From assembly GCA_001795455.1 (NCBI GenBank), contig MGPB01000018.1, positions 1 through 64,000 of the forward strand: a DNA stretch of 64,000 nt, read 5' to 3'. A program made the position numbers and the translations under genes. The stretch is from Curvibacter sp. GWA2_63_95. Lineage in GTDB: Bacteria; Pseudomonadota; Gammaproteobacteria; Burkholderiales; Burkholderiaceae_C. The notes under the pieces are model-generated. The model saw only the letters and a program-made list of their open reading frames with translations. It searched no databases and was not told where the DNA came from. Shown here piece by piece: positions 204-60,290 of this stretch; the first letter of the stretch is position 1, and each line of letters starts with the position of its first letter.

Positions 204-974
204 TCAGGCAAGCTTCAAACTGCTCGCATGCAGGCAAATCGCCGCGGCCGCAGCCACGTTGAGCGACTCCTCGCCCCCCGGCTGGCCAATGCGCGCAAAG
301 ATGCTGGCACGCGCCATGAGTTCGGCGGACACCCCCTGCCCCTCGTGGCCCATGGCCCAGGCGCAGGGATGGGGCAAAGCCAGCTTCTGCACCAAATCGC
401 CCTGGTGGGAACTGGTCACCACCAGCGGCACCGACAAACCATCCAGGTCGGACAACTCCAGTCCTTCCACCAGGGACAGTCCGAAATGTGCCCCCATGCC
501 GGCGCGCAATACCTTGGGACTCCACAGCGCGGCCGTACCCTTGAGCGCCAGCACCTGGCGGAAACCAAACGCCCCCGCACTACGCAAGATGGAACCCACA
601 TTGCCAGCATCCTGCACACGGTCCAGGATCACGGTGGCAGCGTTGGGCTGCACCGCGGTGTCCAGCGGCAAGTCCAGCACAAAGCCCACCTTGGCGGGCG
701 ACTCCAAACCGCTCAATTCGCGGAACAAGGCGTCAGGAATTACTATGGTTTTGATAGCTGCTCGCGCATATTCCACGGGGGCTAGAGGCCAAAATGACTC
801 TGAAACCACGAGCGCAGCAGGCTGCAGGCCACGGTGCAGGGCCGCGCTGCACAGGTGGTCGCCCTCGATCCAGAAGCGCCCCGCCTTGCGGTAGGCCGTG
901 TTGTCGGTGCTGAGTTTGCGCAACTCCTTGAGCAGCGCGTTCTCACGGGAGGTGACGAAGACAGGTTCGCTCAT
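204..974 (-). CDS. SpoU/TrmH-family RNA 2'-O-methyltransferase
   Basis: This 256-residue protein is a SPOUT-class enzyme that would methylate a ribose 2'-OH in rRNA or tRNA using SAM. An N-terminal substrate-binding part ([13 protein letters not shown], then RFWIEGDHL) precedes the SPOUT knot. All three SpoU motifs are visible: a [20 protein letters not shown] motif 1 near the middle, GHEGQG at 209-214, and the [10 protein letters not shown] motif near 236-246. The ATG overlaps the rnhB stop (ATGA), so it is translated with rnhB. A family A repeat (742-794) is read in frame between the N-terminal part and the knot and encodes roughly [15 protein letters not shown]. The exact target base cannot be told; it is RlmB-like or TsnR-like. 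Confidence 0.85.
742..794 (+). repeat. Family A interspersed repeat, copy A1 (inside RNA methyltransferase gene)
   Basis: Close to the consensus: a left hairpin CTAT-N7-ATAG, then GCTGCTCGCGCA, ATTCCACG and GGGCTAGAGGCC. It lies antisense to the gene and is read without a stop. Confidence 0.85.
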
Positions 975-1606
975 GGAAAGGCCTGCAGCACTTGGGTGAC
1001 GGGCGCAAAGGTTTTGCGGTGCTCCGGGCAGGCGCCATGCGCCTTGAGGGCCGCCAAGTGTTCGGCCGTGCCGTAGCCCTTGTGGCCGGCAAAGCCGTAC
1101 TGTGGGTACTGCTGGTCCAGCGTGGCGCACCAGCGGTCACGCGTGACCTTGGCGAGGATGGATGCAGCGGAGATGGCGGGCACGGTGGCGTCGCCGCGCA
1201 CAATGGCTTCGGCCAGCACGTCCAGCACCGGCAGGCGGTTGCCATCCACCAGCACCTTGGCGGGCTTGAGACGCAGACCCTCTACCGCGCGGCGCATGGC
1301 CAAAAGAGTCGCCTGCAGAATGTTGATCTCGTCGATTTCTTCCACACTGGCCTGTGCAATCGAGCAGCACAGGGCCTTGGCGCGGATTTCATCGAACAGC
1401 TTTTCGCGTTTGAGCGCGGTGAGCTTCTTGGAATCGTTGAGGCCAGCGATCGGATTCAGGTCGTCCAGAATCACCGCGGCGGCCACCACCGGGCCGGCCA
1501 ACGGGCCGCGGCCGGCCTCGTCCACGCCGGCAATCAGTCCGGGCAGGTCCCAGGCAAAGGCGACCTGCTGGGCAGGCTCAGGCTTGGAGGACTTTTTCGA
1601 TGGCAT
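971..1606 (-). CDS. rnhB: Ribonuclease HII
   Basis: RNase HII cleaves the RNA strand of RNA-DNA hybrids and starts removal of misincorporated ribonucleotides. The 211-residue protein shows the signature DEAGRG at 29-34 (Asp29, Glu30), a third active-site Asp in VDGN (Asp121) and the downstream [12 protein letters not shown] segment with the fourth. I chose the ATG at 1606 (MPSKKSSK), which lies inside the lpxB 3' end. An upstream in-frame start would add 13 non-conserved residues. The stop overlaps the start of the next gene. The lpxB-rnhB-methyltransferase order is usual in Burkholderiales. Confidence 0.95.
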
Positions 1607-2753
1607 TGGCGGCAAGGGTGGCGGTGTCGCGCTGCAGCGTGGCATGCAGCGTGGTGAAAGTGGTGTGCAGGGCCGCTATTTTCGCAGGATCGGAGTCACG
1701 CGCATCCAGCCAGGCCAACACTTCGTGCGCCAGCGCCTCAGGGGTGGCCGCGTCTTGCAGCAACTCTGGAACCACAAAGCGCTGGCACAGAATATTGGGC
1801 AGGCCCACCCAGGGTTGCAGGCGCTTGCGCCGCATGATCTGCCAGGACAGCCACGCCATGTGGTAACCAATAACCATGGGCCGCTTGAACAGTGCGGCCT
1901 CCAGCGTGGCGGTGCCACTGGCAATCAGCGTGACGTCACAGGCGGCCAGCGCGGTGTGGGACTGACCGCCAAGCAACTGCATACGCCCGTGCATGCCGCT
2001 GTGTTGCGCAAGTTTTTCAATCTCCGGCAGCAGGCCAGGCACGCAAGGCACTATGAATTTGGTAGCTGGTCGCGCAGAATGGATGAGGGCTGCAGCCCGA
2101 AAGAAGCGTAAAGCCAGGTGGCGAATCTCCGACTGGCGACTGCCGGGCAGGATGGCTACCACCGCATCGCCATCGGTGAGGCCCAAGGCGCGGCGGGCCG
2201 CAGCCCTGTCCGGCTCCATGGGAATGACATTGGCCAACGGATGGCCCACATAGGTAGCAGCAATGCCATGGGCTGCGAGCAGTGCGGGCTCGAAAGGAAA
2301 GATGCACAGCACGTGGTCGGAGCTGTGGCGGATTTTTTCCACCCGCTCTGGACGCCAGGCCCAGATGGAGGGACAAACGAAATGCACGGTCTTGACGCCC
2401 TGCCCCTTGAGCCGCGCCTCCAGATCGAGGTTGAAGTCGGGGGCGTCTACGCCAATGAACACGTCAGGCTTGTGGGCCAGCAGGCGGTCGCCCAGTTGCC
2501 GGCGTATGCCCACGATCTCGCGGTAGCGCGTGAGCAACTCCCAGCTAAAACCGTGCACCGCCAGCTTGTGGTGCGGCCACCACGCCTGAAAACCCTGCTT
2601 GGCCATCTGCGGGCCGCCTATACCCTGCGCCGTTGCAGCGGGCCAGCGCTGGCGCACGCCGCCCAGCAGCAGGCCAGCCAGCAGATCGCCCGAGGCCTCC
2701 CCCGCCACCATGGCCACCGTGGGGGCGCCAGCGGGGGCGTGAGACGGATTCAT
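1578..2753 (-). CDS. lpxB: Lipid-A-disaccharide synthase
   Basis: LpxB is a GT19 glycosyltransferase that joins lipid X and UDP-diacylglucosamine to form the lipid A disaccharide at the inner membrane. The 391-residue length is normal. [10 protein letters not shown] near the N-terminus, the GVDAPDFN segment, [10 protein letters not shown], and [10 protein letters not shown] all match the family. It sits downstream of lpxA in the lipid A cluster and its end overlaps rnhB by 29 nt. A degenerate family A repeat (2050-2099) covers the segment that encodes [14 protein letters not shown]. The length around it looks normal for LpxB, so it may have replaced rather than lengthened native sequence. Confidence 0.96.
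2050..2099 (+). repeat. Family A interspersed repeat, copy A2 (inside lpxB, diverged)
   Basis: CTAT-N7-GTAG, GCTGGTCGCGCA and a degenerate right half ending in GGGCTGCAGCCC. It lies antisense to lpxB and is read in the same frame as copies A1 and A4. Confidence 0.65.
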
Positions 2754-2776
2754 AACGATTCGACGATGTGAGAGGC

Positions 2777-3571
2777 TTAGCGAACGATGCCGCGCTGGGC
2801 AGAGACGGCTCCCAAAAAGCCGTTCATCATGGCCACATCGGGTCCAGTCTCTGGATGTGTTGCTTCCAACTCGGCAATACGTTGCTTGGCCTGCTCCAGC
2901 GTCAGGTCGTCGCGGTACAGGGCCTTGTGCATGGCCTTGACGCCGGAAATACGCTCGGGCGAAAAGCCACGGCGGCGCAGGCCTTCAAAGTTCATGGAAC
3001 GGGCTGCGGCCGGTTGCCCCTGGCACATCACAAACGGCGGCAGGTCGGCAAACAACAGCGAGCACATGGCCGTCATGCTGTGGGCACCCAGGCGCACAAA
3101 CTGGTGCACCACGGTAAAGCCACCCAGAATCACCCAATCCCCCACATGCACGTGGCCAGCCAGCTGCGAGTTGTTGGCGAAAATCACGTGATTGCCGACC
3201 AGGCAGTCGTGCGCCAAATGCACATAGGCCATGATCCAGTTGTCATTGCCCAGCACGGTCTTGCCAACGTCGCCGGGCGAGCCGATGTTGAAGGTGCAAA
3301 ACTCGCGGATGGTGTTGCGGTCGCCAATGATCAGTTCGCAGGGTTCACCGGCGTACTTCTTGTCCTGCGGAATCGCGCCCAGGGAGTTGAACTGGAAGAT
3401 CCGGTTGTCTTGGCCAATGGTGGTATGGCCTTCAATCACACAATGTGGGCCCACGGAGGTGCCGGCACCAATGCGCACATGTGGGCCGATGACCGTGTAA
3501 GGCCCCACCGTCACCGAGCTATCGAGCTCGGCCTTGGGATCGATGAGGGCAGTGGCGTGGATAGCGGACAC
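2777..3571 (-). CDS. lpxA: Acyl-ACP--UDP-N-acetylglucosamine O-acyltransferase
   Basis: LpxA catalyses the first step of lipid A synthesis, transferring (R)-3-hydroxyacyl from ACP to UDP-GlcNAc. The 264-residue protein is a left-handed beta-helix of hexapeptide repeats from about residue 10 to 190, with the catalytic-His motif HLAHDC near residue 121 and a helical C-terminus. A TTG at 3589 would start earlier and overlap fabZ by 8 nt. The GTG at 3571 has an AAGAGG ribosome site at a 6-nt spacing, so I chose it. It lies between fabZ and lpxB. Confidence 0.95.
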
Positions 3572-3581
3572 GCGCAACCTC

Positions 3582-4022
3582 TTACGCAATCGCGCGCATG
3601 GCGCAGGTCAGCTCGGCTTCACAAGCCAGCTCATCACCCACCATCGCGCTGGCCTTGAACTTGAAGATGCCGGCTTTCATACGCAACATTTCCACATTCA
3701 GGATCAACTGGTCACCCGGCTCCACGGGGCGCTTGAAGCGCGCGCCGTCAATACCGGCGAAGTAGTAAACCATCTGGTCGTTGGGCGAGGTGTCCAACGC
3801 GTCAAAGGCCAGGAGGGCTGCGGCCTGGGCCAGCGCCTCCAGCATCAGCACCCCCGGCATCACGGGACGGTGCGGAAAGTGGCCTTCAAAAAACGGCTCG
3901 TTGATGGTGACGTTCTTCAAGGCCTTGATGGTCTTGCCCTTGTCCAGCTCCAATACCCGGTCTACCAGCAGAAAGGGGTAACGGTGGGGCAGTTGCTTCA
4001 GGATTTTATGGATGTCCATCAT
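3582..4022 (-). CDS. fabZ: (3R)-hydroxyacyl-ACP dehydratase
   Basis: FabZ dehydrates beta-hydroxyacyl-ACP in fatty acid elongation and competes with LpxA and LpxD for the same substrate, which explains its place between them. The 146-residue hot-dog protein shows [13 protein letters not shown] with the catalytic His and [14 protein letters not shown] with the catalytic Glu. Two ATGs in tandem overlap the lpxD stop (AAATGATGG). I use the first; the second would remove one residue. Confidence 0.95.
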
Positions 4023-5008: not shown

Positions 5009-5038
5009 GCCTTCTCCCCGCATGCGGCGATCCAAGGC

Positions 5039-18557: not shown

Positions 18558-20001
18558 ATGGGTGCTGGGCCCGCAAGGTCCGTTGCGCCCCATGCCCTAC
18601 CCTCTGCTAGGCACGCAGGCACTGCGAACCCTGGAAGCCCGCGCCGCAGCCCCCCTCCCCACCCACACCCTGATGCGGCGCGCCGGGCTGGCCCTGGCAC
18701 GACTCACACTGGCCTACGCCCCCCACGCGCGCGCAGTGTGGGTGGCCTGTGGCCGAGGCAACAATGGCGGCGACGGAATCGAAGCCGCCCTGCACCTGCA
18801 ACGCTGGGGCAAAACCGTCTGGCTGTCCTTGCCCGATGCCCCCCATGCACTGCCTGCCGATGCAGCAGCCTCACTGCAAAGAGCCCGGTCCGCAGGCATC
18901 AGCATCCACCCCGAACCACCGCCGCACTGGGATGTCTGCATCGATGCACTGCTTGGCATCGGGCTGCATACAGCGCCCCGCGACGCGGCGCTGGCCGCCA
19001 TCCAGGCCATGCGGGCCGGCAACGGCACCATCATTGCGGCGGACATACCAAGCGGCCTGATGGCCGACACCGGTCACACCCCAGGCGCATGCGTACGGGC
19101 GCGGGCCACGCTGTCATTTCTAGCCCTCAAACCAGGCCAGTTCACCGCCCAAGGGCGCGACGCCTGCGGTGACATCTGGCTGGACACGCTGGACGTCGCC
19201 ACACCCCACCCGCCAGATGCCTGGCTGAACACCGTCAGCACCCGCCCCCCGCGCCTGCACGCCACCCACAAGGGCAGCTTCGGCGATGTGACCGTGGTGG
19301 GCGGCACCACTGGCATGGTGGGAGCCGCGCTGCTCGCGGGTACTGCAGCCCTGCACGCCGGTGCCGGACGCGTCTACCTGGCCCTGCTGGACGATGGCGA
19401 CCACGATGCGGTATTTGCCACCCACCCTGCCCTGATGCAAGGCAACCTTGCCCAGCTCGCCATCGCTGACATGGCCGTGGTGGTGGGTTGCGGGGGTGGG
19501 GATGCCGTGGAGGCATGCCTGCCGCAGCTCCTGGCAGACGCCCGGCAACTGGTACTGGATGCAGACGCCCTGAACGCACTGGCCCGCAACCCAGCCTGGC
19601 ACCCCACACTGACAGCGCGCAAGCCGGGTACCACGGTACTCACGCCGCACCCCCTGGAGGCTGCACGCCTGTTGGGCAGTAGCACCGCGACGGTACAGGC
19701 CAACCGCTTGGCCAGCGCACAAGCGTTGGCAGACCAATTCCTGTGCCCTGTGGTACTGAAGGGATCAGGAACCATCATCGCCAGCCCCGGCGAACTTCCG
19801 CGCCTCAATCCCACCGGCAATGCGCGACTGGCCATCGCCGGCACCGGCGATGTACTGGCCGGCCTGCTGGGCAGCCTGATGGGACAGGGAGAGGCCGCTT
19901 TCGAGGCCGCATGCCGCGCTTGCTATCGGCACGGCCAAGTAGCGGACCAGTGGGACATGGCATCCACGCTGACGCCCCCCGAGCTGGCTCGTCAAATTTA
20001 A
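18541..20001 (+). CDS. nnr: Bifunctional NAD(P)H-hydrate epimerase / ADP-dependent dehydratase
   Basis: This 486-residue protein repairs damaged NADHX and NADPHX. The N-terminal half is the YjeF-type epimerase (GRGNNGGDGIEAALHL; DIPSGL). The C-terminal half is the ADP-dependent dehydratase of the ribokinase-like fold (KGSFGDVTVVGG, VVLKGSGTIIASPG, and the AGTGDVLAGLLGSL catalytic motif). I chose the ATG at 18541, which overlaps the MBL gene and has AAGG upstream; an ATG at 18592 is an alternative. A family A repeat follows the stop. Confidence 0.9.
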   Translation: MSTNSEWVLGPQGPLRPMPYPLLGTQALRTLEARAAAPLPTHTLMRRAGLALARLTLAYAPHARAVWVACGRGNNGGDGIEAALHLQRWGKTVWLSLPDAPHALPADAAASLQRARSAGISIHPEPPPHWDVCIDALLGIGLHTAPRDAALAAIQAMRAGNGTIIAADIPSGLMADTGHTPGACVRARATLSFLALKPGQFTAQGRDACGDIWLDTLDVATPHPPDAWLNTVSTRPPRLHATHKGSFGDVTVVGGTTGMVGAALLAGTAALHAGAGRVYLALLDDGDHDAVFATHPALMQGNLAQLAIADMAVVVGCGGGDAVEACLPQLLADARQLVLDADALNALARNPAWHPTLTARKPGTTVLTPHPLEAARLLGSSTATVQANRLASAQALADQFLCPVVLKGSGTIIASPGELPRLNPTGNARLAIAGTGDVLAGLLGSLMGQGEAAFEAACRACYRHGQVADQWDMASTLTPPELARQI

Positions 20002-20004
20002 GCC

Positions 20005-20058
20005 AAATAGGCCGCTAACCCTTATGGAATATGCGCAAGCAGCTATCTTTTAGATAGC
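20005..20058 (-). repeat. Family A interspersed repeat, copy A3
   Basis: Between the convergent nnr and rnr genes. On the minus strand it has the perfect left hairpin GCTATCT-N3-AGATAGC, then TGCTTGCGCATATTCCATAAGGGTTAG and GGCC. This is the best example of the hairpin end. Confidence 0.85.
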
Positions 20059-20109
20059 AAATTTAGTGCAATCCGCCAGACGTCCCAGGCACCCGGCGGA
20101 CCCAGCCGC

Positions 20110-25621: not shown

Positions 25622-25680
25622 AGGCCCCCCCTCTTTTTTTGGGGGGGCAGCGACCCGCGAAGCGGCGGAGCGTGGGGGTC
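25622..25680 (-). repeat. Family B GC-rich repeat, copy B1
   Basis: On the minus strand it reads CCCCCACGCTCCGCCGCTTCGCGGGTCGCTGCCCCC, then a run of Cs, As and Gs forming a CCCCCCC-A7-type hairpin. It starts one base past the EamA gene stop and lies between two convergent genes, so it may serve as a bidirectional transcript end. Confidence 0.75.
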
Positions 25681-26604
25681 TTACCGGTGCGCCCGGATGG
25701 AGGCCACGATGCCCAGCACGAACACAGCGCTGGCCAGCAGTTGTAACCATTGGGGCCACACGCCGTAGCCCACGAATGCATAGAGCAAGGCGAACAAGGT
25801 CTCGCTCACAATCAGCTGGCCGCACAGGCTGGCACTCAGGCGGCGGCTGGCGATGCTCCACAGCACCGTGGCCAGCCACGCCGACCCCACACCGGTTGCT
25901 ATACAAACCATAGCTGCTTGCGCAATATCCACTTGGGCCAACAGCACTTTTGGCTCCGAACCCAGCACCCACCACAAGGCCACAGCACCCAGACCGGATG
26001 CCACACCCAACCAGTTGGTCCAATCGGTCACATTCACATCGTGGTGGTGTTGGAGCCAGGCCGAATTCATCACGGCAAATGCGGTCCAACACCCCATGGC
26101 CAGCAGCGCAAACACAATACCGCGCCAGTAGGCCCAGCCTTGCACAACACCCTCAGCAGCGCCGCCAGTCTCCGCCCCCATCATCAGCAAGACACCGGCG
26201 ATGGTGAGACACAAGCCCGGCAACAGGCTGCGCCACAGCAGATGCTGCGGCTTGCCCAGCAACATCACCCAAATGGGAATGGTGCCAATGATCAGCGTGG
26301 GCACCTCCACCCCGGCATCGCGGATGGACAACACCAGCAACAGGTAGTAGCCCGAGAAGCCAAGCACGCTCAAAACCAGCGCGGCTCCCAGCTGTCGCCA
26401 AGTGGGCCAGCGCCGCTGGCCCCGTGCAAACAGCATGACCAGCAAGGCCGTGAGGCCATAGCTGGCAAAGCGTCCCGCAGCTAGGTCTACCGGGGCCAAC
26501 CCAGGAGCCAATGCAGGTGCCACAAAGACCAGCCCCCACAGCGCCCCGGCTGCCAGCCCGGCCAGGATGCCAACTAGCAACGACACCCCCAACCGATCAA
26601 ACAC
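25681..26604 (-). CDS. EamA/DMT-family transporter
   Basis: The 307-residue protein has about ten hydrophobic segments in two EamA halves, typical of drug/metabolite transporters that export amino acids or small metabolites. The substrate is unknown. A family A repeat (25898-25945) is read in frame in the loop and helix encoding LLAQVDIAQAAMVCIA. The start lies 6 nt after the SDR gene upstream, so the pair is probably one operon. Confidence 0.85.
   Translation of the reverse strand: MFDRLGVSLLVGILAGLAAGALWGLVFVAPALAPGLAPVDLAAGRFASYGLTALLVMLFARGQRRWPTWRQLGAALVLSVLGFSGYYLLLVLSIRDAGVEVPTLIIGTIPIWVMLLGKPQHLLWRSLLPGLCLTIAGVLLMMGAETGGAAEGVVQGWAYWRGIVFALLAMGCWTAFAVMNSAWLQHHHDVNVTDWTNWLGVASGLGAVALWWVLGSEPKVLLAQVDIAQAAMVCIATGVGSAWLATVLWSIASRRLSASLCGQLIVSETLFALLYAFVGYGVWPQWLQLLASAVFVLGIVASIRAHR
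25898..25945 (+). repeat. Family A interspersed repeat, copy A4 (inside EamA gene)
   Basis: GCTAT-N7-ATAGC hairpin end, then TGCTTGCGCAATATCCACTTGGGCC. Antisense to the gene, same reading frame as A1. Confidence 0.75.
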
Positions 26605-30020: not shown

Positions 30021-30481
30021 AGAGAAACCGACAATAGATGGGATGCAGCGCCCACCCGGGAGCGCCATCAACGGCAGGGCAGTGTAGATGAGCACCGCAA
30101 GCAAGGCCTTGCGACAAGTCAGACAGAGTGCAATGCCCGATTGCGTCAAAAAATGGAGGCTGCTTGCTGCACCTCGTTTAGAATCCAGTCCTGTCAGGAG
30201 AGAGCCTCCCCCGCGGAGGCCGCCGAAGGCGCAGGACGGCTGATTGCAGCGGTCTGAACGCTCAGGCAAAAGGACTGACATCCGTTGGTGGCTTGGCTAT
30301 CAACGACACCCCACTGGAGAGAGGCCGCAAACTTTGCAGCCCACCGAAGGAGCAACCCGCAGTCTGCGCACCCCTCGTGCATGCAGGCCCGGCGAATCTC
30401 TCAGGTAAAGCGGACAGCGGGGGCAGCACCGGGCGGGCGCAGCCATGCACCCACCCCGGGTTTTGACTTGCCCCTACCTGG
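30021..30481. other. Intergenic region plsC / gcvT with riboswitch
   Basis: The divergent gap contains the plsC upstream region (30021-30186, no clear motif), the tandem glycine riboswitch (30187-30424), and a 57-nt leader that leads into the truncated gcvT. The leader has no ribosome site before the gcvT ATG. Confidence 0.7.
30187..30424 (+). promoter_or_regulatory. Tandem glycine riboswitch upstream of gcvT
   Basis: Two glycine aptamers in series. Aptamer 1 (30187-30276): P1 AGTCC / GGACT, GGAGAGAG, GCCGAAGGCGCAGG, CTCAGGCAAAAGGAC. Aptamer 2 (about 30309-30422): P1 CCCCACTG / CAGCGGGG, GGAGAGAGG, ACCGAAGGAGCAA, AATCTCTCAGGTAAAGCGGACAG. These are the hallmark conserved segments of the class. 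The switch normally turns on glycine cleavage genes when glycine is high. Confidence 0.95.
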
Positions 30482-31522
30482 ATGGCCGAACACCACCACA
30501 CCCGCAACGCCGCTGGCCTGTTTGATGTGTCCCACATGGGCCAACTGCGCCTGGTTGGCCCCGATGCGGCGGCCGCGTTCGAGACGCTGATGCCCGTGGA
30601 CGTGATCGACCTGCCCGTGGGCAAGCAGCGCTACGGCCTGCTTCTCACCGACGAAGGCACCATCATTGATGACCTGATGTTCTTCAACAAGGGCAACAAC
30701 GAAATCTTCGTGATCGTCAATGGCGCCTGCAAGGTGGGTGACATTGCCCACATCCAGGCCAAAATTGGCAGCCGCTGCCAGGTTATCCCCCTGCCCGACT
30801 ACGCGCTGCTGGCGCTGCAGGGCCCGCAGGCAGTGGCCGCCCTGGCCCGCCTAGCACCCGGCGTGGACAAGCTGGTGTTCATGACCGGTGGCAATTTCAC
30901 CGTGGACACCGGCACGCAGAAGATTGACGTGTTTTTAACCCGCAGCGGCTACACCGGCGAAGATGGGTTTGAAATTTCCGTCCACAAGGACCACGCCGAC
31001 GCCCTGGCCCGCGCCCTGCTGGCCCAGCCCGAAGTGAAGCCGATTGGCCTGGGTGCACGCAACTCGCTGCGCCTGGAAGCCGGCCTGTGCCTCTATGGCA
31101 ATGACATTGACACGACCACTACGCCGGTCGAAGCCAGCCTGCTGTGGGCCATGCAAAAGGTGCGCCGCGCCGGTGGCGCACGTGAAGGCGGCTTCCCGGG
31201 CGCTACAAAAATAGGAGCTTCTCTCGCAGATTCCACGGGCACTACAGCACCAAAAGGCACTAAAAAGCGGGTGGGACTGATCGCGCTGGAACGCATCCCC
31301 GTGCGCGACCACACCGAGCTGCAGGACGGCGCGGGCAACAAGATTGGCGAAGTCACCAGCGGCCTGCTCGGCCCCACCATCGACAAACCGGTGGCCATGG
31401 GCTATGTGGACGCCGCCTGGGCGGCGGTGGGCAGCAAAGTGGTGGCCATCGTGCGCGGCAAGCCCGTGCCGATGGAGGTGAGCGCCATGCCCTTTGTGCC
31501 CACGCGTTACTACCGCGGCTAA
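30482..31522 (+). CDS. gcvT: Glycine cleavage system T protein, N-terminally truncated
   Basis: GcvT is the folate-dependent aminomethyltransferase of the glycine cleavage system. The frame opens at AEHHHTRNAAGLFDVSHMGQ, which in the family lies about 35-40 residues inside the protein. The usual N-terminus (the LGARMVPFAGY-MPVQY region) is absent in all frames, an in-frame stop is just upstream, and no ribosome site precedes the ATG. The remaining 346 residues are otherwise well conserved (GVIDD-like TIIDDLMF, SGYTGEDGFE, RNSLRLEAGLCLYG). A family A repeat is read in frame at 31202-31255. Function is doubtful unless the deletion is a sequence error or another start is used. Confidence 0.8.
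   Translation: MAEHHHTRNAAGLFDVSHMGQLRLVGPDAAAAFETLMPVDVIDLPVGKQRYGLLLTDEGTIIDDLMFFNKGNNEIFVIVNGACKVGDIAHIQAKIGSRCQVIPLPDYALLALQGPQAVAALARLAPGVDKLVFMTGGNFTVDTGTQKIDVFLTRSGYTGEDGFEISVHKDHADALARALLAQPEVKPIGLGARNSLRLEAGLCLYGNDIDTTTTPVEASLLWAMQKVRRAGGAREGGFPGATKIGASLADSTGTTAPKGTKKRVGLIALERIPVRDHTELQDGAGNKIGEVTSGLLGPTIDKPVAMGYVDAAWAAVGSKVVAIVRGKPVPMEVSAMPFVPTRYYRG
31202..31255 (+). repeat. Family A interspersed repeat, copy A5 (inside gcvT)
   Basis: GCTAC-N7-GGAGC, TCTCTCGCAGATTCCACGGGCACTAC. Diverged but recognisable. Sense orientation, encoding GATKIGASLADSTGTTAPKG, a few residues longer than usual between FPGA and KRVGL. Confidence 0.65.
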
Positions 31523-32099: not shown

Positions 32100-34982
32100 A
32101 TGCCAACGACCTCTGCCCCCACTCTCGCCCAGCTGGAAAACGCCAGCGAATTCCACGCACGCCACATCGGCATTGATGCCGCCGACGAAGCACTGATGCT
32201 CCAAGCCATCGGCGAGACTTCGCGCCGTGCGCTGATCGACAGCATCGTGCCGCGCTCGATTGCGCGCGCTAGCAAGATGGACATCCCAGCTGCGATTACC
32301 GAAGCGGCAGCGCTGGCCGAGATCAAGGCGTTGGCAGGCAAGAACAAGGTGCTCAAGAGCTTCATTGGCCAGGGCTACTACGGCACGCATACGCCGGGCG
32401 TGATCCTGCGCAATATTCTGGAAAACCCCGCCTGGTACACCGCCTACACGCCCTACCAGGCCGAGATTTCGCAGGGCCGCATGGAAGCGCTGGTGAACTT
32501 CCAGACCATGGTGTGTGACCTGACCGGCATGCCCATGGCCAATGCATCGATGCTGGACGAAGCCACCGCCGCGGCAGAAGCCATGACGCTGGCCAAGCGC
32601 AGCGTCAAAAGCAAGAGCCATGTGTTTGTGGTGGCCGGCGACTGCCACCCGCAAACCATCGAAGTGATCCAGACCCGCGCCAAGCCGCTGGGCATCACCG
32701 TCACGCTGGCCAACTCCGCAGCCGAGTGGGAAGCCGCACTGGCCGGTGACTACTTTGCCGTGCTGGCCCAATACCCCGCCACCAGTGGCCGCATTGACGA
32801 CCTGCGCGCCGACGTGGCGCTGGTGCACGGCAAACAGGCCGCCTTCATCGTGGCCGCCGACCTGCTGGCGCTCACGCTGCTCACCCCCCCCGGCGAATTT
32901 GACGCCGACATTGTGATCGGCACCACCCAGCGCTTTGGCATGCCCCTGTGCAACGGCGGCCCCCACGCTGCCTACATGGCCTGCCGCGACGAATACAAAC
33001 GCTCCATGCCCGGCCGTCTGGTGGGCGTGAGCATCGACACCCATGGCAACCCCGCCTACCGCCTGGCGCTGCAAACGCGCGAGCAACACATCCGCCGCGA
33101 AAAAGCCACCTCCAACATCTGCACCGCGCAGGTGCTGCCGGCCGTCATCGCCAGCATGTACGCCGTGTACCACGGCCCCGAGGGCCTGACCCGCATCGCC
33201 CAGCGTGTGGCCAAGTTCACCGCCATTTTGGTCAAGGGTCTGGAGCAACTCGGTGCCCCGGTGCGCGCGCAAGCCACCTTTGACACGGTCACGCTGAAGA
33301 CCGATGGCGCTACGAATTCGATAGCTGCTCGCGCAGTATCCGCGGGGGCTAACCTGCGAATTTACTTTGAAAACTACCTGTGCATCAGCCTGGACGAAAC
33401 CACCACGCGTGACGACCTGGCGCTGGTCTGGAGCCTGTTCGCCAAGGAAGGCCAGGCCCTGCCCAGCGTGGAAGCGCTGGAAGGCAGCGCCGAATCGCTG
33501 ATCCCCGCCGCACTGCGCCGCACCAGCAAGTTCCTCACGCACCCGGTGTTCAACACCCACCACTCTGAGACCGGCATGCTGCGCTACATCCGCATGCTGT
33601 CTGACAAGGATCTGGCGCTGGACCGCAGCATGATTCCGCTGGGCTCCTGCACCATGAAACTCAACGCCACCAGCGAGATGATCCCCATCACCTGGCCCGA
33701 GTTCGCCAACATCCACCCCTTCTGCCCGGCCGACCAACGCCAGGGTTACGCCGAACTGGACGCACAGCTGCGCGCCTGGTTGTGCGCCGCCACGGGCTAC
33801 GCGGGCATCAGCCTGCAACCCAACGCCGGCAGCCAGGGCGAATACGCGGGTCTGTTGACCATCCAGGCCTACCACGCCAGCAAAGGCCAGGCACACCGCA
33901 ATATCTGCCTGATCCCCAGCAGCGCCCACGGCACCAACCCCGCCAGCGCGCAGATGGTGGGCCTGCACGTGGTGGTGACCAAGTGCGACGACAACGGCAA
34001 CGTGGACATGGCCGACCTGCAAGCCAAGTGTGAACAGCACAGCGCCAACCTGGCCGCGGTGATGATCACCTACCCCAGCACGCACGGCGTGTTTGAAACC
34101 AGCGTGAAAGAGCTGTGCGCCCTGGTGCACAGCCACGGCGGCCGTGTGTACGTAGACGGTGCCAACATGAACGCGCTGGTGGGCACCGCAGCCCCCGGCG
34201 AGTTTGGCGGCGACGTGAGCCACCTGAACCTGCACAAGACCTTCTGCATCCCCCACGGCGGTGGCGGTCCCGGTGTGGGCCCCGTGTGTGTGGTGGCCGA
34301 CCTGGTGCCCTTCTTGCCCGGCCACGCCACCGGTGGTGTGCCTGGCACCGGTGCCGTGAGCGCCGCGCCCCTGGGCAATGCTGCCGTCCTGCCCATCAGC
34401 TGGATGTACTGCCGCATGATGGGCCCGGACGGCCTGCAGCATGCGACCGAAGCCGCCATCCTGGCCGCCAACTACATCAGCGCACGCCTGGCAGACCACT
34501 ACCCCACGCTGTACGCATCGGCCAACGGCCATGTGGCGCACGAGTGCATCCTGGACCTGCGCGGATTCAAAGACAGCTGCGGCGTGATGGCCGAGGACGT
34601 GGCCAAACGCCTGATGGACTACGGTTTCCACGCGCCCACGCTGTCTTTCCCCGTGCCCAATACGCTGATGGTGGAGCCCACCGAAAGTGAAACCCTGGCG
34701 GAGCTGGACCGTTTTATCAACGCCATGATCGCCATCCGCGGCGAGATTGCGCGCGTGGAAAAAGGCGAATGGCCGCAGGACAACAACCCACTCAAGCATG
34801 CCCCGCACACCGCAGCCAGCCTGCTGGGCGGCGAGTGGAACCGTCCGTACAGCCGTGAGGTGGGCGCCTTCCCCGTCGCCAGCCTGAAGGCCGTGAAGTA
34901 CTGGCCCAGCGTGGGCCGGGTGGACAACGTCTATGGCGACCGCAACCTGTTCTGCAGCTGCGTGCCTTTGAGCGAGTACTGA
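32100..34982 (+). CDS. gcvP: Glycine dehydrogenase (decarboxylating), P protein
   Basis: GcvP is the PLP enzyme that decarboxylates glycine and loads the residue onto GcvH. The 960-residue single chain has both halves, with the PLP Lys in [21 protein letters not shown] in the second half and the glycine-rich [13 protein letters not shown] segment. The ATG at 32100 fits [10 protein letters not shown] family A repeat (33309-33355) encodes [16 protein letters not shown] between FDTVTLKT and LRIYFENY. Comparison with E. coli GcvP suggests the length is almost unchanged there. A family B repeat follows the stop. Confidence 0.97.
33309..33355 (+). repeat. Family A interspersed repeat, copy A6 (inside gcvP)
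   Basis: GCTACGAATTCGATAGC hairpin end, TGCTCGCGCAGTATCCGCGGGGGCTA. Sense orientation, same frame as A5, and very close to the consensus. Confidence 0.85.
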
Positions 34983-35118: not shown

Positions 35119-35135
35119 GCCAGGCTGGACCTGGC

Positions 35136-35350
35136 ATCGCAGCGGGAGAGCCTGGCGCCTAAAACGCCAGCGCCGAAGGAGCAACCACCCCGGAAACTCT
35201 CAGGCACCCAGGACCGCTGCGATAGGGATGTTGAATCCCAGAGCACTCTGAAGAGCTGCCGTGGACTAGTCCCCACGGCACACCGCAGGAGCAAGCCGTT
35301 GGCCCACAAGGCTGGCGGTGAATCTCTCAGGTCTCAAACAGAGGGGGTCG
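35136..35350 (+). promoter_or_regulatory. Tandem glycine riboswitch upstream of dadA-like / sdaA
   Basis: Aptamer 1 (35136-35223): P1 ATCGCAGCGG / CCGCTGCGAT, GGGAGAGCCTGGCG, GCGCCGAAGGAGCAACC, AAACTCTCAGGCACCCAGGACCG. Aptamer 2 (about 35249-35345): P1 CTCTG / CAGAG, ACCGCAGGAGCAAGCC, GTGAATCTCTCAGGTCTCAAACAGAGG. Both cores match the glycine aptamer. This suggests glycine controls the FAD dehydrogenase and serine deaminase genes that follow. Confidence 0.93.
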
Positions 35351-35416
35351 TCACCTGCACATGGTGTGTGGGGCGGCGACTTCTATGTTTGCGACTGTTC
35401 TTCAAGAGAGTGCTTT

Positions 35417-42209: not shown

Positions 42210-42216
42210 CGCTCCT

Positions 42217-42264
42217 GATTTAATAGCTGCTCGCGCAACATCCGCAAGGGCTAGAGCCCTAAAT
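42217..42264 (+). repeat. Family A interspersed repeat, copy A7
   Basis: TTTAATAGCTGCTCGCGCAA, ACATCCGCAAGGGCTAGAGCCC. Between the AraC remnant and the MCP gene (3' side of both). The left hairpin arm is weak here. Confidence 0.8.
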
Positions 42265-42284
42265 CATGCCAAAGTGCGGGGCAC

Positions 42285-43418: not shown

Positions 43419-43570
43419 ACGGGTCCAGTGCTGCTGTGGGGGGATGGCGAGAAAATCTGCACACCAGTGTATGCCAGGCCCGCTGGCGGCAAACCGCCAA
43501 TCACCTGCAGAACCACGCCCCTTATTTCAGTGCCACCCGGATCGCCCGCCACCACCAGAACGCTCCGGGA

Positions 43571-43622
43571 ACAGGAGCTGCTTGCGCATATTCCACGAGG
43601 GCTAGAGGCCCATTTGGCCTAA
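43571..43622 (+). repeat. Family A interspersed repeat, copy A8
   Basis: AGGAGCTGCTTGCGCATATTCCACGAGGGCTAGAGGCCCATTTGGCC. It lies just downstream of the dioxygenase gene stop, between two minus-strand genes. Confidence 0.85.
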
Positions 43623-43633
43623 AAAAACAGGCA

Positions 43634-53838: not shown

Positions 53839-53840
53839 CC

Positions 53841-54730: not shown

Positions 54731-55072
54731 ATGGACGCCACCCACACCCCCAGCCCCACCGCCGTGGACCCGCGCAGCTTCCACAGCTTTGCGGAGTTCT
54801 ACCCTTTTTACTTGGGCGAACACAGCAACACCACCTGCCGCCGCCTGCACTTTGTAGGCTCCAGCCTCACGCTGGTGTGCCTGGCCATGCTGCTGGCCAC
54901 CGGCAAGCCGCAGTACCTGCTGTATGGCTTGTTGTGCGGCTACGGCTTTGCCTGGGTGGGCCACTTTGGCTTTGAGAAAAACAAGCCCGCCAGCTTCAAG
55001 CGTCCGCTCTACAGCTTTATGGGGGACTGGTGCATGTACCGCGATATTTGGGTCGGGAAGATCAGGTTCTGA
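54731..55072 (+). CDS. DUF962 (Mpo1-like) membrane protein
   Basis: The 113-residue protein has SFAEFYPFYLGEHSNTTCRRLHFVG, a family hallmark of Mpo1/YGL010w with His in EH and RRLHF, and two membrane segments. In yeast Mpo1 is a dioxygenase in sphingolipid base breakdown; the bacterial role is unknown. GGAGAG precedes the ATG at 54731. Confidence 0.85.
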   Translation: MDATHTPSPTAVDPRSFHSFAEFYPFYLGEHSNTTCRRLHFVGSSLTLVCLAMLLATGKPQYLLYGLLCGYGFAWVGHFGFEKNKPASFKRPLYSFMGDWCMYRDIWVGKIRF

Positions 55073-55104
55073 GCAGAAAATTGGCGCGATGGCGCGGGCT
55101 ATTT

Positions 55105-55151
55105 GCTATAAATTAAATAGCTGGTCGAGCATACACCATAAGCACCACAGC
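55105..55151 (+). repeat. Family A interspersed repeat, copy A9 (diverged)
   Basis: GCTATAAATTAAATAGC is a perfect hairpin end, followed by TGGTCGAGCATACACCATAAGCACCACAG, a decayed right half. It lies between DUF962 and the beta-barrel gene. Confidence 0.65.
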
Positions 55152-55326
55152 CCGATTTCGTATATATCGCAAGTAATGGATGGAGACCCGCGAAGCTTGC
55201 GATCCACCACGTGGACGCAAGTCGTTAGCGGGATTAATTTCGCTTAGTATCCATGCAGCGAAATTTGTCGGGTGGCACGCGTCGATGGCTCGCTGAATGT
55301 CCCATGCTTAGAGTTGGAGGTTGCAC

Positions 55327-56085: not shown

Positions 56086-56220
56086 GGCTGGCTGCGGGCA
56101 GCAGAGTCCAAAGGCTTAGACGACTCGCTGCCGTTTGGGTTGCGAGCTCGCGAGTGGGCGTCAGGGCATGGGCGCATTTTGCGTTTGCAGAGTGCAGCGT
56201 CCACCGCCACCACACCGCTA
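56086..56220. other. Gap between convergent beta-barrel and yihY genes
   Basis: 135 nt. A GCGAGCTCGC palindrome and a GCTGGCTGC / GCAGCAG pairing are visible. No T-run terminator. Nothing else recognised. Confidence 0.4.
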
Positions 56221-57444
56221 CTATTTTTGCAGTGCCTCGCGCAGGGTGGTTGCGGGCCAGCGGCCAATTTTCCATAAATTCTCGGTCACGGCATCGGGCT
56301 TGAGCAGGGCCGCGCGCATCAGCGGCTCCAGCACCGTGCCGTCCAGGTCGGCCAGCAGCACGTAGCGGGCTTGGGCGCCGTGTGCGCCGGCTTCGCTGAG
56401 TTGGCCCACCCAGTCCAGCTCCACCAGCATTTGCAGCACCGGCTCCAACCGCAGCGGGTCTACCTGCAAGGTGGTGCGCAGCTGGGTCAGGGTCAGGCCC
56501 TTGTCAGCGCCGGAGCGGGCACGCTCCAGCAATTGCAAGGATTCCAGCGCCAGCTGGAACTGCCAGCCGTGGCCCAGACGGCGGCGCGGCACGCCAGCGA
56601 TCAGGCTGGGCAGGTAGGCCGTGAGGGCTGCGCCCAGCAGCACGATGACCCAGGCCACATAAATCCAGATCAACAAAATGGGCACTGTGGCAAACGCGCC
56701 GTAGACCACCGAATACGTGGGTACCTTGCTCAGGTACAGGGCCAGGCCCTTGCGCGCCAGTTCCATGCCGGCCGATACAAACAGCCCGCCCATCCACGCG
56801 TGGCCCCAGCGCACCTGGGTGTTGGGCACGTAGTGAAACATGGCCGCCATGCCCGTGGCCACCAGCACAAACTGCAGGCTGTCCAGCAGCAGGCTCACGC
56901 CACCCGGCAGCCCGCCCACCAGCCCCTTGGACGCCGACACGGCGTACGAGGTGAGCGACAGGCTGCCCCCCAGCAACAAGGGCCCGAGCGTGATGGCAGC
57001 CCAGTAGATCAGCACACGCTGGCCCAGGGCGCGGCGCTTGCGCACGCGCCAGATGCTGTTGAGCGTGCGGTCGATGGTGAAAATGAGCGCCAGCGCCGTG
57101 CCCAGCAAAATGGCCAGACCGGCCACGCCCAGGCGGCTGGCCTTGCCGGCAAACTGGTTCAGGTAGCCCAGCACCTGGCGGGCAATGTTGTCGGGCACCA
57201 GGCTCTCAATCAGCCATTTCTGCAACACATCCTGAAACTTGGCAAACATGGGAAAGGCGGTGAACACCGCCAGCGCCACGGTAATAAACGGCACCAGCGC
57301 AATGGTGGTGGTGAAGGTCAGGCTGCTGGCGGTCAGGCCCAGGCGGTCTTCGCGGAAGCGCTCGCGCAGCGTGAAGGCGGCGTCTCGCCAAGGGATGCTG
57401 GCCACGTCGCGCAGCCAGGGTTTCAGACGTTCGATCAGTTGCAT
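56221..57444 (-). CDS. YihY/BrkB-family inner membrane protein
   Basis: The 407-residue protein has about six membrane segments over residues 35-265 (LTASSLTFTTTIALVPFITVALAVFTAFP at the start, the YihY hallmark) and a soluble C-terminal extension of about 130 residues. Once misannotated as ribonuclease BN. The role is unknown. The gene is convergent with the beta-barrel gene. Confidence 0.9.
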   Translation of the reverse strand: MQLIERLKPWLRDVASIPWRDAAFTLRERFREDRLGLTASSLTFTTTIALVPFITVALAVFTAFPMFAKFQDVLQKWLIESLVPDNIARQVLGYLNQFAGKASRLGVAGLAILLGTALALIFTIDRTLNSIWRVRKRRALGQRVLIYWAAITLGPLLLGGSLSLTSYAVSASKGLVGGLPGGVSLLLDSLQFVLVATGMAAMFHYVPNTQVRWGHAWMGGLFVSAGMELARKGLALYLSKVPTYSVVYGAFATVPILLIWIYVAWVIVLLGAALTAYLPSLIAGVPRRRLGHGWQFQLALESLQLLERARSGADKGLTLTQLRTTLQVDPLRLEPVLQMLVELDWVGQLSEAGAHGAQARYVLLADLDGTVLEPLMRAALLKPDAVTENLWKIGRWPATTLREALQK

Positions 57445-57481
57445 CCCACTATGATGCCACCAGCCACCGCAGGGGCAGCGG

Positions 57482-58273
57482 CTAACGCTCTGCCAAAGTG
57501 GGCTGCGCCTTCCATTTCTGGAAGCTCTTGCGGATCAACTCCTCCAGCACTCCGGTCTTTTTCAGCAGCGCCAGGCGGGCGTCGATCTGCTCCAGCTTGT
57601 CGGCACATTTGCCGTTGCGGGTGAGCACCAGGTAGTTTGGGGTGTCGGTCAAAAACGGGGTTTTCACCACAAAACGCTCTTCATCGCCCCGCTTGAGCAG
57701 CAGCGCCATGCCGGTGTAGTAGCCGGTGATGAAGTAATCCAGTCGCCCCAGCGCGAGTTTGTCGAAGTTGCTTTCCGGGCTGTTGGACTCCTGGATGTTC
57801 AGGCGCTCGCGCAGGTACTCGTCCACCCCACCGCCAAACACATTGCCCCGGGTAATGCCGCCACGCAGGCCCACCAGGTCCACACGGTCCTTGAACTCAA
57901 ACGGATGCTCGCGAAACCCGAACACCGCCACCGGGTTGGACAGCGCGGGCGTCTTGGGGTAGAGCAAAAAGGCCTCGCGCTCGGGTGTTTTCTTGAGCGT
58001 GGCCACCATGTCCACTTCGCCGCGCTCGGCCAGGGTCATGATGCGCGGGAACGGCCCCTGGTAGCGCACCTCGTAGGCAATGCCCAAGTCGGTTAACACG
58101 TGCTTGGCAATCTCGATGCTGGCGCCCTGCAGGGTCTCCCCGTCGTACCAGTGCATGGGCGGGTAAGCCGGGTCGGCCGTAACCACCATGCGGCTGCACT
58201 GCGCCTGCGCGCCTGCCCACACACCCAGCCACAGACCACCGAATGCCATCCACCGCAGAAGGTTTGCTGCCAT
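57482..58273 (-). CDS. Periplasmic solute-binding protein (SBP_bac_3)
   Basis: The 263-residue protein has a signal peptide ending AGAQA and a bacterial family-3 binding domain (MVVTADPAYPPMHWYDGETLQGASIEIAKHVL, KTPEREAFLLYPKTPAL). No ABC transporter partner is nearby, so it may sense a ligand or belong to a remote system. GGAG lies 8 nt before the ATG at 58273. Confidence 0.88.
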   Translation of the reverse strand: MAANLLRWMAFGGLWLGVWAGAQAQCSRMVVTADPAYPPMHWYDGETLQGASIEIAKHVLTDLGIAYEVRYQGPFPRIMTLAERGEVDMVATLKKTPEREAFLLYPKTPALSNPVAVFGFREHPFEFKDRVDLVGLRGGITRGNVFGGGVDEYLRERLNIQESNSPESNFDKLALGRLDYFITGYYTGMALLLKRGDEERFVVKTPFLTDTPNYLVLTRNGKCADKLEQIDARLALLKKTGVLEELIRKSFQKWKAQPTLAER

Positions 58274-58419
58274 AGCCCGACTCCTAGCGCCCACAGGACA
58301 GGTCCAGCCTATTCCTATCGCTGCCCGCCAGCAAGAGGGGAAAACCGCCCCCCCGCCGGGGAATGGGGCCCGCGGGGCCGCCCGGCACCAGCATTTGTTT
58401 TAAGCTACGCGGCTTACCT

Positions 58420-58836
58420 ATGCAAGCAACCCTCCTCCCCCCTTCCTCGTCCCACACCGTGCAGCTCAGTCGCCACGTGGCAGTGGCCAGCACCCTGGGC
58501 CTGATCCTGCTGGGCCTGCTGTGGGAGCTGTGGCTGGCACCCACCGGCAGCGGCACACTGGCCATCAAGGTGTTGCCCCTGTGTATTCCGCTGGCGGGCC
58601 TGCTCAAGAACCGCATGTACACCTACCGCTGGGTCAGCCTGATGGTGTGGCTGTATTTCACCGAAGGCGTGGTGCGCGCCTGGAGCGACAAGGCGCCCGG
58701 CAACTGGCTGGCCCTGCTGGAGGTGCTGCTGTGCATCGTGCTCTTTGTAGCGTGCACCGCCCATATCCGCCTGCGCCTCAAACACGCCAAGCTGGCCGCA
58801 GCCCCCGACGAACAGACCACCCGCCCTGCCCCATGA
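58420..58836 (+). CDS. DUF2069 membrane protein
   Basis: The 138-residue protein has four predicted membrane segments and the DUF2069 pattern (LGLILLGLLWELWLAP, KNRMYTYRWVSLMVWLYFTEGVVRAW). Function is unknown. The ATG at 58420 fits; the frame extends upstream without a ribosome site. Its stop overlaps the next gene start (ATGA). Confidence 0.85.
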   Translation: MQATLLPPSSSHTVQLSRHVAVASTLGLILLGLLWELWLAPTGSGTLAIKVLPLCIPLAGLLKNRMYTYRWVSLMVWLYFTEGVVRAWSDKAPGNWLALLEVLLCIVLFVACTAHIRLRLKHAKLAAAPDEQTTRPAP

Positions 58837-60257
58837 CCGATACCGAAACTTTGCGCGCCACGCTGCGCACCCTGGTGGGCGACGCCCACGTACTCACCGA
58901 CGGCGACCTGACCGCCTACGAGCAAGACTGGCGCAAACGCGAACGCGGCCGTGCGCTGGCCGTGGTGCGCCCCGGCAGCACCGACGAAGTGGCCGCCGTG
59001 GTGAAAGCCTGTGCGGCCGCTGGCGTGAGCCTGGTGCCCCAGGGTGGCAACACCGGCATGGTGGTGGGCTCCATCCCCGACGCCACGGGCACCCAGGTGC
59101 TGCTAAGCCTGCAGCGGCTGAACCGCATCCGCGCCATCGACGCGGCCAACCTCACCGTGACGGTAGAGGCCGGCTGCGTGCTGCAAACGCTGCAAGAGGC
59201 GTGTGAGAAAGAAGGCTTTTTGTTCCCCCTGAGCCTGGCCGCCGAAGGCAGCTGCACCATTGGCGGCAACCTGGCCACCAATGCGGGCGGCACGCAGGTG
59301 GTGCGCTACGGCAACACGCGCGAGCTGTGCCTGGGCCTGGAAGTGGTGACGGCACAGGGTGAAGTCTGGAGCGGCCTGACCGGCCTGCGCAAAGACAACA
59401 CCGGCTACGACCTGCGCCACCTGTTCATCGGCTCCGAAGGCACGCTGGGCGTGATCACCGCGGCCACCTTGCGCATGTACCCCTTGCCCGCCGCCCAGCT
59501 GACCGCCTTTGCCGCCGTTCCCTCGCTGGACGCGGCGGTGCAGCTGCTGGGCCTGGCGCACAAACACCTGAACGCCGGCCTGACCGGTTTTGAGGTGATG
59601 GGCGACTTTGCGCTGAGCCTGGTGCGCAAACACTTTCCGCAACAGAACGTGCCGTTTGGCGGCTTGTCGCCCTACTGCGTGGTGCTGGAAAACTCCGACC
59701 ATGAGTCGGAGAGCCATGCCCGTGCGCAGTTCGAACGACTGCTGGAAGCCGCGCTGGAGCAAGGCTGCGTGTTGGACGCCGTAGTGGCCGAGAACATTGC
59801 CCAGGCCCGCGCGCTGTGGCACATCCGCGAGAGCATTCCGCTGGCGCAGGCCCAAGAGGGCCTGAACATCAAGCACGACATTTCCATCGCCGTGTCACGC
59901 ATACCCGCCTTTGTGACCGAGGTAGACGCCCTGCTAGCGCAGCACTTCCCCGGCGTGCGGCTGGTGAACTACGGCCACCTGGGCGACGGCAACCTGCACT
60001 ACAACGTGCAAGCCCCCGAGGGTGCCGATGCCGAAGCGTTTTTGCGCGACCAGGAAGGCCCGATCAACGCACTGGTGTACGAGGTGGTAGACCGCTACAA
60101 CGGATCGATTTCTGCGGAGCACGGCATTGGCAGCCTCAAGCGCGAGAAGCTGGCGCACCACAAATCGCCAGTTGCCTTGAGCGCCATGCGCGCCATCAAG
60201 GGCGCGCTAGATCCGAAAAATCTGATGAATCCAGGCAGAGTGCTATCAATAGAGTAG
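58833..60257 (+). CDS. FAD-binding oxidoreductase (D-2-hydroxyacid / D-lactate dehydrogenase type)
   Basis: The 474-residue protein has an FAD_binding_4 domain (VPQGGNTGMVVG; SIGGNLATNAGGTQVVRYG) and a FAD-oxidase C domain with the GHLGDGNLHYNV metal/His motif. Related enzymes oxidise D-2-hydroxyglutarate or D-lactate. The substrate is not certain. The end of the protein (VLSIE) and the stop lie inside family A copy A10, so the C-terminal residues come from the repeat. Confidence 0.9.
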   Translation: MTDTETLRATLRTLVGDAHVLTDGDLTAYEQDWRKRERGRALAVVRPGSTDEVAAVVKACAAAGVSLVPQGGNTGMVVGSIPDATGTQVLLSLQRLNRIRAIDAANLTVTVEAGCVLQTLQEACEKEGFLFPLSLAAEGSCTIGGNLATNAGGTQVVRYGNTRELCLGLEVVTAQGEVWSGLTGLRKDNTGYDLRHLFIGSEGTLGVITAATLRMYPLPAAQLTAFAAVPSLDAAVQLLGLAHKHLNAGLTGFEVMGDFALSLVRKHFPQQNVPFGGLSPYCVVLENSDHESESHARAQFERLLEAALEQGCVLDAVVAENIAQARALWHIRESIPLAQAQEGLNIKHDISIAVSRIPAFVTEVDALLAQHFPGVRLVNYGHLGDGNLHYNVQAPEGADAEAFLRDQEGPINALVYEVVDRYNGSISAEHGIGSLKREKLAHHKSPVALSAMRAIKGALDPKNLMNPGRVLSIE

Positions 60258-60290
60258 CTGCTCGCGCAATTACCACGTGGTCTAGGGCCA
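60242..60290 (+). repeat. Family A interspersed repeat, copy A10 (supplies a stop codon)
   Basis: GCTATCAATAGAGTAGCTGC, TCGCGCAATTACCACGTGGTCTAGGGCC. It supplies the last codons and the TAG of the FAD oxidoreductase gene. Confidence 0.8.

Follow-up and report, generated by a model that had tools for sequence, protein, structure and literature searches.

Results

An interspersed repeat maintained in place in Curvibacter

A 64,000-nucleotide stretch of the Curvibacter sp. GWA2_63_95 genome (contig MGPB01000018.1, positions 1–64,000; hereafter the window) carries ten copies of an interspersed repeat, family A. We interpret this family, with a probability of roughly 0.8, as an in-place recognition signal, perhaps one for DNA uptake. 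To describe the family, we built a 66-nt profile from 57 copies found in 464 kb of the genome, comprising the window and positions 1–400,000 of contig C21. Across this DNA, 61 copies score above 24 bits, those in the window ranging from 36.7 to 64.9 bits, and the best score in the reversed 464 kb is 9.5 bits. Scores are nearly bimodal, with few matches between 10 and 26 bits. A restricted form of the pattern matches at 171 places in the 3.88-Mb genome, compared with none for the same pattern read backwards, and these two controls rule out chance resemblance as the origin of the copies. Extrapolating from the 61 copies yields about 510 per genome. The original prediction, made from the letters of the window alone, had placed ten copies of about 50 bp; the profile located all ten again at about those places, far above the reversed-sequence scores, with a unit of about 66 nt rather than 50 bp.

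Existing codons, not inserted DNA, carry the in-gene copies

Five copies in the window lie within genes and are translated without stops, as had been proposed, and Pfam and PDB homologs support the gene types. Three of these are antisense: A1 (741–806, + strand, 64.9 bits) in a SpoU-type RNA methyltransferase gene (204–974 or longer, − strand; Pfam SpoU_methylase), A2 (2049–2114, + strand, 39.6 bits) in lpxB (1578–2753, − strand; lipid-A-disaccharide synthase in PDB), and A4 (25897–25962, + strand, 45.3 bits) in an EamA gene (25681–26604, − strand; Pfam EamA). The other two are sense: A5 (31201–31266, + strand, 40.6 bits) in gcvT (30482–31522, + strand; Pfam GCV_T) and A6 (33308–33373, + strand, 50.0 bits) in gcvP (32100–34982, + strand; glycine dehydrogenase in PDB).

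Over the stretch, all nine element-free orthologs of lpxB and all seven of the methyltransferase have an unchanged length. All 14 gcvP orthologs without the element differ by −1 to +5 residues, those of gcvT are 1–7 residues shorter in nine cases and equal in the tenth, and the EamA gene of one relative, G044, which lacks the element, aligns gap-free over the core. Similar residues can stand at the same place without the repeat DNA, as in gcvP, where the element encodes QAIAAKAVAAGANVR and an ortholog devoid of repeat DNA has similar residues there; this goes part of the way toward the refutation that the original prediction had itself foreseen. Two occupied methyltransferases, L115 of G033 and L135 of G015, have six extra residues. 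Both carry these as an identical insertion (QNPKSR) beside the element, and its presence in two rather distant genomes suggests exchange between them.

Solved homologs were available for 9 of the 23 in-gene copies of the 464 kb, and we took the lengths of the 22-residue stretch at the element from the printed alignments. The change is 0 in LpxB, +1 in GcvP (−1 against a second homolog), +4 in TruB, +3 in glutamate racemase, +1 in DusA, −3 in a FAD-dependent oxidoreductase, +3 in 3-hydroxyisobutyryl-CoA hydrolase and −1 in a YejF-type ATPase, so that eight of the nine proteins fall within −3 to +4 residues; the ninth, an enoyl-CoA hydratase (C21:18612), exceeds its closest solved homolog by about 13 residues. 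Because element-free orthologs and solved homologs align through the element, insertion of the kind described in Rickettsia is not supported.

Sites are shared among relatives

Contig C21 contributes 51 elements, of which 37 and 31 are unaligned to the relatives G082 and R. bucti (G034), respectively; 24 and 22 of these lie beyond the aligned range and the remaining 13 and 9 in non-aligning stretches, and the counts of shared sites therefore cover aligned loci only. Where the DNA aligns, all 14 elements have a counterpart in the comparison with G082, whichever genome is taken as the starting point; for R. bucti the counts are 20 of 20 in one direction and 20 of 21 in the other. No insertion was found at any aligned C21 locus in these two comparisons. 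The single unshared site relative to R. bucti lies in a gene and scores 24.0 bits in that species; its left half aligns gap-free, and LVAGRD is specified there by different codons. Across the window, five relatives offer 28 aligned places, of which 27 are occupied; the exception is the EamA site of G044. Copies A1, A5, and A6 are common to all five relatives where aligned, whereas A3 is shared with G082, A4 with G082, G001, and G007, and A10 with R. bucti, G044, and G007. An intergenic site of the latter three genomes is not called in G001, where a diverged hairpin is visible. On near-constant protein length and shared sites at aligned loci, we rejected mobile-element insertion as the source of the copies.

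The motif is kept at the DNA level and shifts in step across loci

Relative to intergenic copies, in-gene copies show a deficit in consensus agreement of −0.05 at codon position 1, −0.12 at position 2 (bootstrap range −0.16 to −0.08) and −0.03 at position 3 (−0.06 to +0.01). An inserted element decaying under protein constraint would be expected to lose its consensus at third positions, unlike the second-position deficit observed. Codons within the elements are rare ones, ATA, for example, accounting for 12 of 29 isoleucine codons compared with 2% genome-wide.

We then compared element-rich with element-poor relatives, sorted by genome-wide copy number with genomes holding 5–49 matches left out; this sorting replaces an earlier comparison of occupied genes that was conditioned on score, and its rows are not phylogenetically independent. 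Four in-gene sites reach at least 20 bits in 52 of 56 rich relatives and in none of the 32 poor ones. Where the residue is unchanged, rich relatives keep the codon at 721 of 934 positions inside elements versus 13059 of 20529 outside, and poor relatives at 82 of 269 inside versus 6854 of 11739 outside.

One column of the profile differs systematically between species. Column 39 falls on the third base of the codon in both in-gene frames; 74% of the 61 copies of the studied genome have G there, and 92% of 37 copies in R. bucti have C. Among 27 orthologous pairs (studied genome/R. bucti), 18 are G/C, seven C/C, two G/G and none C/G; 18 of 20 G sites are thus C in R. bucti, including 9 of 9 within genes. 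Between these genomes, G changes to C at a background rate of 2.4%, 3.5%, and 12.5% for codon positions 1–3 and 8.0% outside genes. Other variable columns agree at 0.70 between orthologs versus 0.41 for unrelated copies, and since they keep the identity of their locus, the copies were not replaced wholesale. The column is C in 12 of 12 copies in G007, 5 of 8 in G001 and 2 of 8 in G044, so no single simple split is followed, and other genera differ further in the form of the motif (150-genome pattern scan). This dialect, together with in-place maintenance, points to recognition by a putative trans-acting factor.

Anatomy of the element

The element comprises a left module, GCTAT-N7-ATAGC with degenerate half-sites, followed by a right module, AGCTGCTYGCGC-N11-GSGCTAGMGSCC. 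AT-rich stretches flank both modules, AA and TT being exchangeable at one of them. The consensus of the 31 intergenic copies is TGCTATTAATTTAATAGCTGCTCGCGCATAATCCACGGGGGCTAGAGGCCTATTTGGCTTAAAATT, and the information content of the motif is 62 bits over 66 nt. Exact 13-mer cores (AGCTGCTYGCGCA) occur 27 times in the 464 kb, 26 within called elements and one outside. The two halves of the left module take similar forms (ATAGC, GTAGC, GGAGC, or their complements) and combine freely, GCTAT pairing with ATAGC in 12 of 57 copies and with GGAGC in another 12. The right module is an imperfect inverted repeat that is closer to perfect in other genera (AGCTGCTAGCGCTT...AAGCGCTAGAGGCC). A mutual-information scan of the columns revealed couplings of neighboring columns only, save one nearly empty end column, and an Rfam scan of the window gave six matches, none at a family A copy. 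The left hairpin of the original prediction accordingly holds as a sequence module but not as a covarying stem, its two arms varying independently, and we read this anatomy as fitting double-stranded half-site recognition more than a stem. At one orthologous intergenic site, compensatory stem changes are visible by eye among G007, G001, and G044, so structure may matter between genes.

Stop-codon avoidance largely explains the reading frames

The three antisense copies of the window had been noted to use one frame and the two sense copies another, and the same rule holds over the 464 kb (16 of 16 antisense, 7 of 7 sense). Of the 31 intergenic copies, 14 have no stop in the antisense frame that is used in genes, and 8 have none in a second frame. 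At loci in other genera (110 among the matches listed, with frames matched by hand and orthologs counted more than once), in-gene frames divide 17:8:2 antisense and 11:3:0 sense, and the corresponding frames are stop-free in ratios of 82:72:4 and 114:19:2 among 165 other copies. Avoidance of stop codons therefore explains most of the frame rule. Any preference beyond it is weak, and we rejected the reading frame as a driver of the in-gene copies.

Distribution and genomic context

By our own gene finder, 23 of the 61 copies lie within predicted genes, seven across gene ends and 31 in intergenic DNA, 26 of these last within 60 bp of a gene 3′ end. Even spacing of the copies is borderline, as 5% of random placements are equally even. 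The longest element-free gap, C21:298–370 kb (72 kb), is reached in 0.3% of random placements and is 15% alignable to R. bucti and G082, versus 71% and 62% elsewhere. It begins with LptF/G- and aminopeptidase-type genes and tRNA-Ser, and genes of copper and heavy-metal resistance type lie further in (C21:327000–350000, L047–L048; eight proteins examined). Identity to relatives drops with distance from elements, which may reflect core location only.

Copies were expected in related genomes and are indeed present: across 150 genomes of the Comamonadaceae, 79 have a match and 27, from 25 genera, have at least 20 (range 20–401), the reversed pattern matching 0–2 times in those 27. Genus-wide, among 61 genomes, 17 have at least 50 matches, ten have 5–49 and 34 have four or fewer. 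Exact matches, among those listed, occur in Rhodoferax, Acidovorax, Polaromonas, Giesbergeria, Simplicispira, Diaphorobacter, Extensimonas, Curvibacter, and Paenacidovorax, with one Mesopusillimonas and one gammaproteobacterial bin as outliers. Five viral contigs in a collection of 2.9 million contain the exact pattern. A BLAST search of plasmids and phages with a 91-base query returned no match, a query we judged too weak for these collections.

The remaining window copies lie at gene ends or between genes. A3 (19994–20059, − strand, 57.2 bits) is located at the 3′ end of a YjeF/carbohydrate-kinase-type gene (18562–20001) and A10 (60241–60306, + strand, 58.6 bits) across the stop of a FAD-linked oxidase gene (58833–60257), both gene types assigned by Pfam. 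A7 (42210–42275, 53.6 bits), A8 (43561–43626, 55.4 bits), and A9 (55104–55169, 36.7 bits, the lowest of the ten) are intergenic and on the + strand. A weak match at a gene end (56216–56281, + strand, 15.4 bits) may be a site that is half formed or in decay; where the homologous block starts, R. bucti, G007, G001, and G044 score 22.8, 23.5, 22.7, and 20.6 bits. A second repeat family, GGCAGCGACCCGCGCAGCGGNGGAGCGTGGGG, occurs at window positions 25646 (+), 49927 (+), and 32007 (−) and at C21 373075 (−), with GC-rich inverted repeats nearby, and Rfam identifies glycine riboswitch pairs before gcvT (30185–30427) and after gcvP (35133–35351, + strand).

Discussion

Relation to known systems

Family A shares with DNA uptake sequences (DUS) and uptake signal sequences (USS) many copies dispersed through genes and the spaces between them, evolution in place that the encoded proteins can accommodate (PMC3630211) and species dialects. 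Among species of the Neisseriaceae, single bases separate the DUS dialects (PMC3630211), and orientation and frame bias within genes have been reported for DUS and USS (PMC2346458). It departs from them in its length, about 66 nt in two modules against a core of 9–12 bp, in its strong intergenic bias and in lacking a short sufficient core, nearly all 13-mer cores lying in full elements. Repetitive extragenic palindromic (REP) sequences and their paired form, REPINs, which are associated with RAYT (REP-associated tyrosine transposase) genes (PMC3733652, PMC2817692, PMC3116915), resemble family A as imperfect palindromes present in many copies near gene 3′ ends, with a RAYT gene in most genomes. 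Unlike them, family A exhibits no detectable turnover, its arms do not covary, its in-gene copies sit on existing codons, and RAYT genes are equally common in genomes without it. For want of a short core we do not file family A as a DUS, and for want of mobility not as a REP; among the readings considered, we rate highest that it works like an uptake signal.

We found no description of the family in the literature searched, although a fragment of it has been printed: the motif GCTTAT(N)5AAGCG of Acidovorax ebreus, reported as a potential novel motif with a role not known, has 114 copies, 107 of them intergenic and generally less than 50 bp from genes (PMC5217627). It corresponds to the center of the Acidovorax form of family A and matches the scanned DNA 25 times; the 14 matches inspected by eye all fall in element context. 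As presented in the available text of that source, the motif stands isolated in one genome, without the family, in-gene analysis, dialects, or mechanism. A second motif from the same report (from Polaromonas naphthalenivorans) has no match in the same DNA, and the available text of PMC2755013 mentions only a CRISPR array. The proposal that the family was undescribed is thus nearly right, part of it having already been published.

A candidate uptake signal and its alternatives

Many single bases fixed across loci require a factor that reads DNA together with a force that fixes the change. Biased uptake with homologous recombination is one such force, and direct selection at each site is the alternative. 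We propose that family A is a double-stranded DNA signal read by a trans-acting factor and evolving base by base at fixed orthologous loci. Copies lie mostly just 3′ of genes and, where the protein tolerates it, within genes, existing codons being bent toward the signal in a stop-free frame. In favor of this reading we count the shared sites, the nearly constant protein lengths, upkeep of the motif against codon usage, the one-base dialect, the lack of copies in the gap that holds the metal-resistance genes, and the mere five matching viral contigs. If the factor were part of DNA uptake or transformation, alleles with a better signal would enter other cells and replace the resident allele by recombination at that locus, a drive that would need no insertion and under which many sites could follow a receptor change. 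We place the chance that uptake or transformation is the role of the family slightly short of even. The broader proposal, that the Comamonadaceae have a long, two-module, dialect-forming uptake signal whose spread by transformation reshaped codons of essential enzymes in place, is offered more tentatively. Selective, pilus-dependent transformation has been reported in Verminephrobacter, and A. temperans is transformed by DNA of its own species only (PMC4212676).

Several observations weigh against a role in uptake. DNA of three other Acidovorax species did not transform A. temperans (PMC4212676), although Acidovorax shares family A; this failure could reflect a lack of homology. In length the motif far exceeds known uptake sequences, copies consisting of the core alone hardly occur (one of the 27 exact cores) whereas DUS and USS work as short cores, and the copies per genome are fewer than the DUS counts given in PMC3630211. 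Our search for a receptor covered ComEC only and identified none; ComEC is found in 144 of 150 family genomes, so near-universal as to be uninformative about family A, and the six genomes without it have at most three matches, as do many with it. Anecdotally, the comEC match of G095 is split in three, and the copies shown from that genome are mostly imperfect. A RAYT-type gene accompanies family A in nearly all rich genomes. Finally, interspecies identity of the elements is not clearly higher than that of their flanks: for R. bucti it is 0.77 versus 0.80 in genes and 0.78 versus 0.81 between them, and for G082 0.87 versus 0.85 and 0.84 versus 0.80, so what is kept is the motif and not each letter.

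The same in-place maintenance and dialect could arise if family A were the binding site of a nucleoid- or chromosome-organizing protein, or of some other abundant DNA-binding protein, with ordinary selection preserving the site locus by locus; half-sites and dialect would then track the protein. Half-sites that vary independently within one set of states, and the concentration of intergenic copies after gene 3′ ends, fit this explanation. It would, however, require selection to fix one base at many single sites, essential genes included, and the scarcity of matches in 34 of 61 genus genomes would make the function dispensable, and we consider it unlikely. We regard as improbable an old REPIN-like family that is linked to a RAYT transposase and has almost ceased to move, despite its palindromic modules, its many and mostly extragenic copies (31 of 61 intergenic and seven at gene ends), and arm states (ATAG/GTAG/GGAG) that recall GTAG-tagged REPs (PMC3733652). 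A PF01797 match is present in 21 of the 22 element-rich genomes examined (of the 27), and at 5 of 12 loci examined the RAYT domain has an element within 1 kb; within the genus, however, RAYT genes occur in 23 of 25 genomes without matches versus 21 of 24 with family A, a lack of correlation that speaks against RAYT as its cause. By eye, the RAYT gene carries other repeats at its own ends, aligned loci show no turnover, and transposition fails to explain length-neutral in-gene copies or a one-base shift with other columns kept. In several genomes (for example at L079, L082, and L143), the repeat found on either side of the one RAYT-type gene is GGGGTCAGATTCCAATTA or its complement. As a separate observation, G107, rich in family A, has 20 Y1-transposase matches against the usual single copy.

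An RNA-level element, whether a terminator, an mRNA stabilizer, or a small-RNA target formed by the hairpins, would account for the location after genes and for the compensatory changes at the one intergenic site. Left arms that do not covary, a mutual-information scan with essentially only neighboring-column couplings, 16 of 23 in-gene copies in antisense, and no Rfam family at any window copy make it very unlikely. Scarcely credible in turn is a mobile palindromic element inserted in frame, the parallel drawn by the original prediction. Rickettsia palindromic elements interrupt open reading frames by insertion (PMC3733652); family A is like them in that repeat sequence is translated within genes, stop-free copies and the longer enoyl-CoA hydratase being what such insertion would produce, and unlike them in that its copies hardly alter protein length. 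Given the small changes in the other eight proteins, the same-length element-free orthologs of lpxB and the methyltransferase, and the absence of insertions at aligned loci, in-frame insertion is already contradicted for lpxB, gcvP, and the methyltransferase. Of that first interpretation, the interspersed family, its translated copies, and its presence in relatives stand; the parallel with insertion does not.

Whichever role holds, in-gene copies of family A should not be taken for insertions: here a long DNA motif draws coding sequence toward itself with no insertion involved, and does so at many loci, in concert throughout the genome. Should family A prove to be an uptake signal, it would explain the sequence-specific transformation reported in Verminephrobacter, for which the available text of PMC4212676 names no sequence, and it would make the drive hypothesis testable outside the two classical families, in a third lineage and with a signal several times longer than DUS and USS. 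If it is instead a chromosome site, it would represent a large uncharacterized system in a widespread environmental family.

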